NCBI GenBank assembly: GCA_023139775.1
Contig: JAGLMY010000222.1
Location: 1 to 36,415 of the forward strand
Direction of reading: 5' to 3'
DNA from: a bacterium
Lineage (GTDB): Bacteria; Oederibacteriota; JAAXVQ01; JAUVAV01
Length of the DNA: 36,415 nucleotides
Shown: one piece after another, positions 6,764 to 35,880 of the stretch
How the letters are laid out: every line of letters starts with the position of its first letter
How positions within the stretch are numbered: the first letter of the stretch is position 1
Made by a program: the position numbers and the translations under genes
Notes under the pieces: model-generated
Told to the model about the DNA's origin: nothing
Database searches by the model: none
Seen by the model: the letters and a program-made list of their open reading frames with translations, nothing else

Positions 6764-7398
6764 AGCGCCAAGGAGTACTCATTGTGGTTTCTTCCCCGTC
6801 CGGTGGCGGCAAGACAACCATTTGTGAACAGTTGTTAAAGCAAGACCGGAATTTGGTGCGCAGCATATCTGTGACTACCCGGGAACCACGTGGTTGTGAA
6901 AGCCAAGGACGTGATTATTACTATATGGATATGCTCAAATTCCGGCAATTAAAAAAACAAGCTGCTTTTTTGGAATGGGCGCAAGTGCACGGACATTGTT
7001 ACGGAACCTTGCGGCAAGCGGTTGCCAAAGAGCAACAACGCGGCAAAGATGTTCTGCTGGTCATTGATGTACAGGGCGGAATGGCAGTGAAAAAAAAAGA
7101 TCCCCGGGCAGCATTGATTTTTGTGCAGCCGCCTACACTTAAAGCCTTACAGTCCCGCTTACAAGGACGCGGGACCGATGGCCAAGACACTATTCGAAAG
7201 CGTCTGCAAAACGCGCGCTGGGAAATGTCCTGTGCGCAATATTATGACTATGTGGTCGTGAATGAGTATTTGCCCAAAGCAGTGGAACAGGTACAGGCGA
7301 TTATTACGGCAGAGCGATTGCGGGTAATGCCAACCCCGAAAAGCAGAGAAAGATGGGATAAAAACCGTAGAGACGCGATTAATCGCGTCTCTACATAG
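6760..7398 (+). CDS. gmk: Guanylate kinase, C-terminus encoded by a dispersed repeat
   Basis: It catalyses GMP + ATP to GDP + ADP. The P-loop SPSGGGKTT sits at residues 12-20, followed by the GMP-binding block ([20 protein letters not shown]) and [10 protein letters not shown]. The 212-residue length is normal for the family. The final ten residues, [10 protein letters not shown], are encoded by a 28-base palindromic repeat (7367-7394) that recurs identically at 13972 and 35853, followed at once by TAG. So the natural C-terminus has been replaced or extended by a repeat insertion. The core enzyme is complete and should be active. It is co-transcribed with remA (four-base overlap). Confidence 0.94.
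7367..7394. repeat. 28-base GTAGAGACGCG palindrome inside the gmk coding region
   Basis: A perfect palindrome (GTAGAGACGCGATT and its reverse complement), identical to the intergenic copies at 13972-13999 and 35853-35880. It is read in frame as the gmk C-terminus. Confidence 0.92.
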
Positions 7399-11735: not shown

Positions 11736-11875
11736 CCTAACCCGGACCAGCCGGAACAAAAATATAACCGCCGATACACGCCGATATACGCAAATTAAAA
11801 ATCTTTTTTATCCATTATGCAATAAACATTTGCGTTTATCTGCGTGTATCGGCGGTTAATTTTCTTTCCATTTTG
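11736..11875 (-). repeat. GCCGAT-palindrome element, full copy in reverse orientation
   Basis: Begins two bases after the upstream stop with the tail (CCTAACCCGGACCAGCCGG), followed by the palindrome TAACCGCCGATACACGC...GCGTGTATCGGCGGTTA (11765-11858) and CCATTTTG. Direct-orientation copies are at 21976 and 29573, a fragment at 7415. Confidence 0.85.
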
Positions 11876-13971: not shown

Positions 13972-13999
13972 GTAGAGACGCGATTAATCGCGTCTCTAC
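13972..13999. repeat. 28-base GTAGAGACGCG palindrome
   Basis: Identical to the copy at the 3' end of gmk (7367) and to 35853. It lies 18 bases before a related palindrome with compensated changes (14018). Confidence 0.92.
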
Positions 14000-14017: not shown

Positions 14018-14045
14018 GTAGGGGCGCGATTAATCGCGCCCCTAC
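14018..14045. repeat. 28-base GTAGGGGCGCG palindrome
   Basis: Perfect palindrome sharing the CGCGATTAATCGCG centre with 13972-13999. The outer stem reads GGGG/CCCC where the neighbour has GAGA/TCTC. Confidence 0.92.
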
Positions 14046-21226: not shown

Positions 21227-21977
21227 AACCTTTTTTGCTGTTCTGCTCCTTTCCGTACTGCTTGTCAATCCGGTACCCGGAGCAACTGCCGCGAAGGCGC
21301 CTCAGGTGCCGCGACCAGTCGGTTTTGTAAATGATTATGCCCAGGTGCTTAGTGAACCGGCTAAAGCGCAACTAAATGCTCTCTCAACCAGTCTGGCGCA
21401 AGCTACCGGCGCGCAGATGGTTTTTGTGATTATGCCCAGCATTGCTCCTTACGATGAATTTACCTATGGCCAGGCTATTTTTGATGCTTGGGGCATTGGT
21501 CAAAAAGGCAAGGATAATGGACTCTTGTTTTTAATTGCCATCAAAGAAAAGCGTCTTCGTATTCATACGGGGTACGGTGTAGAGGGAGTGTTGCCGGACG
21601 GCAAGTTGGGACGTTATCGGGATGAATACTTGCGGCCCTATTTAAAGAAAAACCAGATAGGCGCCGGCTTGGCCAACATTGGTCTGGTCTGTGCTCAGGA
21701 TCTGGCCCAAGAGGCCGAGGTACAGTTGAATATCAACGGAACACCAAAGCGGTTTCCGCGCCAAAAAAGTCAGGGGACCCCCGGGCGCCTGATTATCATG
21801 ATTGTTTTATTGGTGTTCCTCAGTGTGATTTCGAGACTAAACCGGCGTCGTCGTTCTGTGACCGGTGCCTATATTCCAGGGGGCTACTATCGCAGCGGTG
21901 GCGGTGGTTTTGGTGGCGGCTTCTCGGGTTTTGGCGGCGGTTTTTCCGGTGGCGGCGGCGTGGGTGGCGGCTGGTAA
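21186..21977 (+). CDS. TPM-domain (YgcG-type) membrane protein
   Basis: A signal or anchor segment (about residues 15-30) is followed by the TPM domain: VGFVNDYAQVLSEPAKAQL, then FTYGQAIFDAWGIGQKGKDNGLLFLIA and RIHTGYGVEGVLPDG. A transmembrane helix follows at about 203-220 (LIIMIVLLVFLSVISRL) after a basic stretch. A Gly-rich tail ends FSGGGGVGGGW, the usual ending of this family. The start used is GTG at 21186, inside the upstream gene; TTG at 21192 is an alternative. It precedes lemA, and TPM/LemA pairs recur in many phyla, probably as a membrane complex of undetermined role. Confidence 0.88.
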   Translation: MRLKNLQPLWTVCKTFFAVLLLSVLLVNPVPGATAAKAPQVPRPVGFVNDYAQVLSEPAKAQLNALSTSLAQATGAQMVFVIMPSIAPYDEFTYGQAIFDAWGIGQKGKDNGLLFLIAIKEKRLRIHTGYGVEGVLPDGKLGRYRDEYLRPYLKKNQIGAGLANIGLVCAQDLAQEAEVQLNINGTPKRFPRQKSQGTPGRLIIMIVLLVFLSVISRLNRRRRSVTGAYIPGGYYRSGGGGFGGGFSGFGGGFSGGGGVGGGW

Positions 21978-22106
21978 AGAAAATTAACCGCCGATGAACG
22001 CCGATAAACGCGGATATTTATAGCTTAAGGGATAAAAAAGATTTTTAATTTGCGTATATCGGCGTGCATCGGCGGCTAAATTTGGTTCCGGCTGGTCCGG
22101 GTTAGG
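21976..22106 (+). repeat. GCCGAT-palindrome element, full copy
   Basis: Runs from AAAGAAAATTAACCGCCGAT to the tail CCGGCTGGTCCGGGTTAGG. It starts at the stop codon of the TPM gene and ends 19 bases before the lemA ATG, so it fills the whole gap. Confidence 0.85.
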
Positions 22107-22718: not shown

Positions 22719-22734
22719 GGACGATTGGGGACGT

Positions 22735-22837
22735 GGGGACGTTGATCGGTAATACGGTTATCCAGAATCACTAATATTTATGAAGAAATCCAAAGAGTCA
22801 GCAAATAAAGATAACCGTATTACCGATCAACGTCCCC
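22735..22837. repeat. 103-bp palindromic element, copy A, left of rnpB
   Basis: Perfect 28-bp inverted repeats (22735-22762 and 22810-22837; GGGGACGTTGATCGG arm start) around 47 bases. Copy B at 23266-23368 is identical except for three transitions in the loop. It ends a few bases before RNase P RNA. Confidence 0.92.
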
Positions 22838-22840
22838 CGA

Positions 22841-23237
22841 GGTGGAGTAGTCCGGGCGGCCGCTCTTGTGAGGGCGCGATGACCGCGCCCCTACAGGGGA
22901 GGAAAGTCCGAGCTCCCAGGGCAGAGTGCTGGGTAACACCCAGTCGCGGTGACGTGAAGGAAAGTGCCACAGAAAATATACCGCCCTGCACCCTTGTGGT
23001 GCAGGGTAAGGGTGAAATGGTGAGGTAAGAGCTCACCGCGCTCCGGGTGACCGGAGTGGCAGGGCAAACCCCGCTTGGAGCAAGACCAAATAGGAGGGAT
23101 GTGTCTGGCAACAGACACAAACCACGGCCCGTGGTTCCCTCGGGTTGGTCGCTTGAGGCGCAGCGTAAGTTGCGTCCCAGATAAATGGTCGCCATCTCTG
23201 GCAACAGAGAGACAGAACTCGGCTTATGGACTACTCC
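22841..23237 (+). ncRNA. rnpB: RNase P RNA, bacterial type A, with a repeat hairpin in helix P3
   Basis: Catalytic RNA that matures tRNA 5' ends. Landmarks: the terminal helix GGAGTAGTCC (22844-22853) pairs with GGACTACTCC (23228-23237). GGAGGAAAGTCCGAGCTCC (from 22899) is the universal P4 5' strand, and ACAGAACTCGGCTTAT near 23212 is its 3' partner. AGGGCAGAGTGCTGGGTAAC and GGGCAAACCCCGCTTGGAGCAAGACCAAATAGG are the conserved P8-P12 region, and two GCAA tetraloops are present. The P3 arm contains the palindrome 22868-22894, a member of the dispersed repeat family. A T8 run (23242-23249) after the closing helix fits termination. No convincing promoter was found in the preceding element. Confidence 0.94.
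22868..22894 (-). repeat. GTAGGGGCGCGG palindrome inside RNase P RNA helix P3
   Basis: On the minus strand it reads GTAGGGGCGCGGTCATCGCG and then CCCTCAC, the dispersed palindrome type. As RNA, AGGGCGCG pairs with CGCGCCCC... to cap helix P3. Confidence 0.85.
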
Positions 23238-23249
23238 TTAATTTTTTTT
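23228..23249 (+). terminator. RNase P RNA 3' end with T8 run
   Basis: The 3' strand of the closing helix is followed by TTAATTTTTTTT. The long-range helix is not a classic terminator hairpin, so the call is tentative. Confidence 0.45.
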
Positions 23250-23265
23250 CGCTTTACGAATGATT

Positions 23266-23368
23266 GGGGACGTTGATCGGTAATACGGTTATCCAAAACC
23301 ACTAATATTTATGAAAAAATCCAAAGAGTCAGCAAATAAAGATAACCGTATTACCGATCAACGTCCCC
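23266..23368. repeat. 103-bp palindromic element, copy B, right of rnpB
   Basis: Same length and same perfect 28-bp arms as copy A, in direct orientation to it. It ends 22 bases before the DAHP synthase start codon. Confidence 0.92.
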
Positions 23369-23390
23369 CCGTTACTTTGAGGTGGTTCCG

Positions 23391-29492: not shown

Positions 29493-29559
29493 GTAGGGGC
29501 GCACTGAGTGCGCCCGATCAACATATGCCTGTAGGGGCGAGATGACCTCGCCCACACAA
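29493..29559. repeat. Paired GTAGGGG hairpins, unit 1
   Basis: Two hairpins (29493-29516 and 29531-29557) joined by ATCAACATATGCCT and ending CACACAA. The same pair with a different first stem is at 29741-29808, on the other side of the palindrome 29573-29711. Confidence 0.8.
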
Positions 29560-29572
29560 CTGAAATTCTTTG

Positions 29573-29711
29573 CAAAATGGAAAGAAAATTAACCGCCGAT
29601 ACACGCAGATAAACGCAGATATTTATAGCTTAATGGATAAAAAAGATTTTTAATTTGCGTATATCGGCGTGTATCGGCGGCTAAATTTGATTCCGGCTTG
29701 TCCGGGTTAGG
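29573..29711 (+). repeat. GCCGAT-palindrome element, full copy
   Basis: CAAAATGGAAAGAAAATTAACC at the left end (reverse complement of the right end of 11736-11875), the palindrome CCGCCGATACACGC...GCGTGTATCGGCGG, then tail CCGGCTTGTCCGGGTTAGG. Confidence 0.85.
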
Positions 29712-29740: not shown

Positions 29741-29808
29741 GTAGGGGCGACCCTGGCGGTCGCCCGATCAACAAATGCCGTAGGGGCGAGGTCACCTCGC
29801 CCACACAA
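29741..29808. repeat. Paired GTAGGGG hairpins, unit 2
   Basis: First stem GGGCGACC/GGTCGCCC, linker GATCAACAAATGCC, second stem GGGCGAGG/CCTCGCCC, end CACACAA. The linker matches unit 1 at 29493 but the first stem differs. It ends 17 bases before the phasin-like gene. Confidence 0.8.
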
Positions 29809-31871: not shown

Positions 31872-32296
31872 TGAAAAAAACCGGACGTGTCCTGGGTCTG
31901 GATTTTGGCGCTCGCCGGATTGGAGTGGCTATATCAGATCCTTTGGGCATTACTGCCCAGCCACTTACCACCATTCGCAATAAAAAAGCGACCTGCCTGT
32001 CAGAACTGACCCAACTTATTCTGGAGAAAGAGGTCATCCTGTTGGTGGTCGGCTTACCGCGGCACATGAGTGGCCAGGAGGGTGAAAAAGCGCTGGCTGC
32101 CAGGGAGTTTGGGGAACGCTTAAGCCAACAGGCGAAAGTTCCGGTTCAGTACATTGATGAGCGTCTGACCACTGTGGCAGCACAACGTGTGCTCACTGAA
32201 AGCGGCATGTCAGGAAGTAAACAAAGACAAGCAGTTGATAAATTAGCCGCGGTTTTAATTCTGCAAACCTGGATGGATAGACAGCAGCGAGCGTAG
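31871..32296 (+). CDS. ruvX: RuvX/YqgF Holliday-junction resolvase-like nuclease
   Basis: A 141-residue RNase H-fold protein: LGLDFGARRIGVAISDPLG (catalytic Asp in the first strand), LLVVGLPRHMSGQEG, YIDERLTT and the closing DKLAAVLILQTWMD. The family acts as a junction resolvase and in pre-16S rRNA 5' processing. The frame extends upstream into ubiB; the ATG at 31871, overlapping the ubiB stop as TGATG, gives the standard length. Its stop codon TAG (32294-32296) lies in the GTAGGGAACGG repeat at 32293. Confidence 0.93.
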   Translation: MKKTGRVLGLDFGARRIGVAISDPLGITAQPLTTIRNKKATCLSELTQLILEKEVILLVVGLPRHMSGQEGEKALAAREFGERLSQQAKVPVQYIDERLTTVAAQRVLTESGMSGSKQRQAVDKLAAVLILQTWMDRQQRA

Positions 32297-32365
32297 GGAA
32301 CGGTCCCCCAACCGGAAGGCTTATTGAAAAATAAGGGATTCCCTTTGGTTGCGACCGTTCCCTAC
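32293..32365. repeat. 73-base GTAGGGAACGGTC hairpin, copy 1
   Basis: Arms GTAGGGAACGGTC and GACCGTTCCCTAC with an inner CCAACC...GGTTG helix and AAGGCTTATT...AATAAGGG pairing. It differs from copy 2 (32480-32552) only at bases 32303 and 32355, which pair with each other. Confidence 0.93.
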
Positions 32366-32479: not shown

Positions 32480-32552
32480 GTAGGGAACGTTCCCCCAACC
32501 GGAAGGCTTATTGAAAAATAAGGGATTCCCTTTGGTTGCGAACGTTCCCTAC
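32480..32552. repeat. 73-base GTAGGGAACGTTC hairpin, copy 2
   Basis: Identical to copy 1 except T at 32490 and A at 32542, a matched pair in place of G-C. The 114 bases between the copies (32366-32479) hold no recognisable gene. Confidence 0.93.
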
Positions 32553-35852: not shown

Positions 35853-35880
35853 GTAGAGACGCGATTAATCGCGTCTCTAC
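35853..35880. repeat. 28-base GTAGAGACGCG palindrome
   Basis: Identical to 7367-7394 and 13972-13999. It lies 26 bases before the third subtilase gene. The rest of the 35619-35906 gap shows only the minus-strand promoter. Confidence 0.92.

Follow-up and report, generated by a model that had tools for sequence, protein, structure and literature searches.

A GTAG-tagged REP element has very probably been inserted at the apex of helix P3 in the RNase P RNA gene (rnpB) of the draft genome G000, where it would form a hairpin in the RNA, and the same kind of event, probably a separate one, seems to have befallen the related genus represented by G002. The gene lies on contig JAGLMY010000222.1, in a stretch of 36,415 nucleotides referred to below as the window. 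The element would have entered on the minus strand and either replaced or overgrown the old distal part of P3. Once transcribed, it would form a hairpin that stacks on the basal pairs of P3, leaving P3 roughly twice as long and the catalytic core unchanged, and RNase P function is presumably intact.

The complete gene occupies positions 22844-23241 of the plus strand (RF00010, 322.3 bits). Its Infernal match to this Rfam covariance model spans model positions 1-367 with the core helices retained, and no other RNase P RNA match is present in the draft genome (3.59 Mb, 362 contigs, 90.6% complete). By its fit to the model, the product is assigned to bacterial class A RNase P RNA, with catalysis predicted. 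Directly around the gene, two 105-nt elements, 97% identical and in the same orientation, occupy 22734-22838 and 23265-23369. They carry 28-nt terminal inverted repeats (GGGGACGTTGATCGGTAATACGGTTATC), have a third copy in L074 (G000:C16) and look like MITEs.

Helix P3 extends over 22863-22899 of the plus strand and consists of a basal CUCU/GGGG part and an extension derived from the repeat, as read from the cmscan structure line. The minus strand of 22868-22894 is GTAGGGGCGCGGTCATCGCGCCCTCAC. An earlier note, made from the letters of the window, had described this segment as a palindrome akin to several intergenic copies, with which both its sequence and the genome-wide repeat counts agree. 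The note had also assigned it to P3, and the covariance model indeed places it there, model position 20 pairing with 43; Infernal treats the repeat as 13 inserted bases at the tip plus one non-standard pair. It is flanked by the basal strands of the helix, CUCU starting at 22863 and its partner GGGG at 22896-22899. Folded alone, P3 forms two paired stretches of 8 and 7 bp separated by an A·C mismatch (-25.7 kcal/mol, z = -4.3), as expected of the hairpin continuing P3 that the note had proposed. The old P3 was not, however, simply lengthened: the basal CUCY/GGGG pairs are retained, but the short distal part found in relatives (GGA...UCC) is absent in G000. The A·C mismatch appears to have come with the repeat variant, with no clear sign of decay, since the closest copies, at 29531 and 29780 (GTGTGGGCG...CGCCCCTAC, other strand), are mismatched at the same place.

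The repeat in P3 belongs to a large family. The 10-mer GTAGGGGCGC occurs 103 times in the G000 genome, against 8 occurrences of the reversed control, which marks the repeat as high-copy and dispersed. A search with the closest variant, GTGNGGGCGNGNTNACCNCGCCCCTAC, allowing up to 2 mismatches yielded 35 strand hits and its reversed control none, and GTAGGGGCGCGG, also at up to 2 mismatches, is found 15 times in the window where 2.9 would be expected. Two intergenic copies on the plus strand belong to the same variant as the P3 copy: GTAGGGGCGAGATGACCTCGCCCACAC at 29531-29557, detected by variant pattern search, and GTAGGGGCGAGGTCACCTCGCCCACAC at 29780-29806, which shares 23 of 27 bases with the P3 copy (BLAST, 86% over 29 nt). 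A motif search of the window located a fully palindromic copy, GTAGGGGCGCGATTAATCGCGCCCCTAC, at 14018-14045 (plus strand), and another variant, GTAGAGACGCGATTAATCGCGTCTCTAC, is fully palindromic at 13972-13999 (plus strand) and occurs also at 7367-7394 and 35853-35880. Several stem variants of the GTAG palindrome thus coexist in this genome.

Could P3 have grown by ordinary drift and come to resemble the repeats by chance, both being GC-rich hairpins? P3 is known as a peripheral helix whose length varies, and it does differ in length among the relatives compared here. The likeness nevertheless runs through stem and loop, with the best BLAST copies agreeing in as many as 27 of 30 bases (E ~1e-5, in ~700 kb of G000) and reversed controls of zero, and the same coincidence would be required in G002, where 26 of 29 bases match a form of the family. 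We consider drift very improbable and have rejected chance resemblance on these grounds. The opposite direction of transfer, with the P3 hairpin as the source from which the dispersed repeats were retro-copied or transposed, would also account for a sequence common to both, and is hardly credible. GTAG palindromes are present in G001 too, whose P3 contains none, several stem variants exist within one genome, and the dispersed copies found by BLAST in ~700 kb of G000 carry no flanking rnpB sequence; this origin was rejected as well. Insertion of a repeat into P3 therefore stays the preferred reading.

By anatomy, the P3 repeat is a 27-nt palindrome with a stem GGGCGCG/CGCGCCC and a 5-nt loop, and its minus strand begins with GTAG at 22894-22891. 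The opposite end varies: it is TCAC in the P3 copy and ACAC at 29531 and 29780 (partly paired), and CTAC in many other copies (fully paired). REPs, as miniature palindromes of 20-40 bp, are thought to be mobilised by RAYT transposases, and G000 encodes a REP-associated tyrosine transposase (RAYT; NF047646, 84.6 bits, cut-off 80). Contig C135 of G000 holds another RAYT-like ORF, which is flanked on either side by GTAGAGACGCGAT repeats and contains a further one in frame; these repeats are of the GTAGAGACG variant, other than that of P3. The ORF is 198 amino acids long (L200, G000:C135, 146-739), and the in-frame repeat copy encodes CCRDAIHRVSD directly after the NHIH motif. Movement of the P3 repeat may have been RAYT-mediated.

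GTAG-tagged REPs have been described as high-copy palindromes of 20-40 bp with a GTAG end, short loops and G-T stem pairs (Di Nocera et al. 2013, PMC3733652). The G000 repeats share with them size, GTAG end, a GC stem (7-8 bp here), short loop, G-T pairs and copy number, as well as RAYT genes in the genome and an occasional location inside genes. Judged from anatomy and the RAYT in the genome, assignment of the dispersed palindromes to GTAG-tagged REPs is good but not perfect, because many copies, unlike classical REPs, pair GTAG with CTAC. The intragenic elements of PMC3733652 are located in protein genes, whereas the host in G000 is a ribozyme.

P3 was compared in relatives from other genera: G001, G005 and G002 of the same family and G006 of the same order. 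In G001, G005 and G006, P3 is short and free of the GTAG repeat, with the tips GGAAGTATTTATCC, GGAAGTAGTTTTCC and GGGGGTTCCCCCC, respectively, between basal CTCY and GGGG; it folds with 7-9 bp in G001 and G005. A shorter P3 without the repeat in the nearest relatives is what the earlier note had expected of an insertion, and insertion into P3 is well supported. The repeat may have been tolerated there owing to its self-complementarity. Neither a target-site duplication nor a clean empty site is visible at the P3 repeat. In G003, rnpB runs off the end of a contig (L116, G003:C89), and the missing 5' half was not recovered from that assembly; no rnpB was found in the G004 assembly.

In G002, the apex of P3 is TGTAGATACGTTGCAATGTAACGTATCTACA, a GTAG palindrome of another variant than in G000. 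A family form, GTAGAGACGTTGCAATGCAACGTCTCTAC, lies ~45 bp upstream of G002 rnpB; G002 contains one further copy of it and G000 three. With respect to GTAGAGACGTTGCAATGCAACGTCTCTAC, one pair in the P3 copy of G002 has changed on both sides (G-C to U-A) and another from G-C to G-U, so that pairing in the RNA has been retained. Genomes of 84,980 species were scanned for a single pattern, TGTAG and CTACA separated by 17-25 nt with GAGGAAAGTCC just after them, which is so strict that it would miss the G000 copy itself (GTGAG on the 5' side). Of the 4 matches, a single one lies in what appears to be an RNase P RNA, where P3 is not repeat-like, and the scan hence gave no further case. Since the scan gave no other, the two P3 cases in one family do not look like a coincidence of P3 sequence.

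Whether these two cases go back to one insertion or two was weighed from trees and from the stems themselves. A single ancestral REP insertion in P3 of the family, with the stem later swapped or converted in G002 (or in G000) and lost in G001/G005, would explain why the insertion point, CTCYT | repeat | AGGGG, is identical in both genera. The two stems, however, are of different variants (GTAGGGGCG, 27 nt; GTAGAGACGTTGCAATG, 29 nt), and both variants have dispersed copies elsewhere. The best AlaS tree, with moderate support (82-91/93), places G002 outside a group of G000, G003 and G001/G005, so that the short-P3 G001/G005 are nearer to G000 and an extra loss would be needed. AU tests did not reject G000 and G002 as a clade (p 0.14), and the RNase P RNA tree was unresolved. 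We regard a single insertion as rather unlikely. Two independent insertions, in G000 and in G002, are likely yet not proven, because the AlaS tree favours them and the AU test leaves the G000 + G002 grouping standing.

In ~700 kb of G000, which contain five tRNA genes, 4 of 74 palindromic copies are exactly centred in another perfect inverted repeat of at least 5 pairs. Over 2000 trials, controls with re-paired flanks averaged 0.36 and never exceeded 3; with shifted registers the count was 0 or 1. One of the four dyad-centred copies is nested inside another GTAG palindrome. These counts suggest that the elements insert preferentially at hairpin tips or dyad centres, and since they seem to do so, target preference may matter beside tolerance at P3. 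At P3 itself, preference is not separated from selection, because selection removing other insertions from rnpB would leave the same picture. The case provides a way to distinguish directed insertion of REPs at hairpin apices from mere tolerance at such sites.

Of 45 genomes from the phylum, 13 carry another dispersed palindrome, CCCTTCGACARGCTCAGGG, with 49 copies in all at up to 1 mismatch. Three of the 49 copies lie inside rnpB (G002, G029 and G041), against 0.007 expected if copies were evenly distributed, a figure that is indicative only, because the test was set after the first case had been seen in G002. The covariance model places all three in P12, the G002 copy being read in the opposite sense to those of G029 and G041. 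Calling CCCTTCGACARGCTCAGGG dispersed in G029 and G041 rests on relatives, since at up to 1 mismatch neither genome has a copy outside rnpB. In G027 and G017, the 3' side of P12 is made up of longer variants, CCCTGAGC...GTCGAAGGG. Palindromes of this type are thus present in P12 of five genera (L027 in G002, L088 in G029, L047 in G041, L044 in G027 and L092 in G017). It is conceivable, at somewhat less than even chances, that hairpin apices of structured RNAs are preferred landing or refuge sites of miniature palindromic transposons, and that GTAG REPs (P3, two genera) and CCCTTCGACARGCTCAGGG-type elements (P12, five genera, three families) have repeatedly remodelled peripheral RNase P RNA helices in this phylum. 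Capture of mobile hairpins at helix tips would explain in concrete terms why peripheral RNase P helices vary in length.

Repeats inside rnpB and REPs inside genes are already known. A literature search found no published precedent for a REP in RNase P RNA, or for one recurring as an RNase P helix tip at one apex, and the main text on GTAG REPs (PMC3733652) mentions neither RNase P nor rnpB. According to PMC2858038, which cites Vioque 1997, STRR repeats lie within rnpB of heterocyst-forming cyanobacteria; as in G000, repeats of the genome are there found inside the RNase P RNA gene, but STRRs are short tandem repeats, whereas the G000 repeat is a single palindromic mobile element. Yeast mitochondrial GC clusters (PMC4478555) resemble the G000 repeats in being short, mobile and palindromic and in merging with one another; they are mitochondrial, and the portion of that text which was searched does not mention insertion into RNase P RNA. 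Rickettsial palindromic elements are likewise palindromes tolerated inside functional genes. They differ from the G000 repeat in having a CGTC tag and no dedicated transposase, and have been described in protein genes (PMC3733652). The P3 case would mean that an essential ribozyme can take up mobile hairpins, here a REP, as part of its structure.

Further repeated elements were observed in the window. A GTAGGGAACGGTC palindrome with a further hairpin at its centre is present at 32293-32365 and 32480-32552, the two copies being 97% identical and 187 nt apart. A dispersed 131-nt element (CGCCGATACACGCAGAT type) occurs at 21976-22106, 29581-29711 and 11736-11867, and also in L075, L167 and L141.
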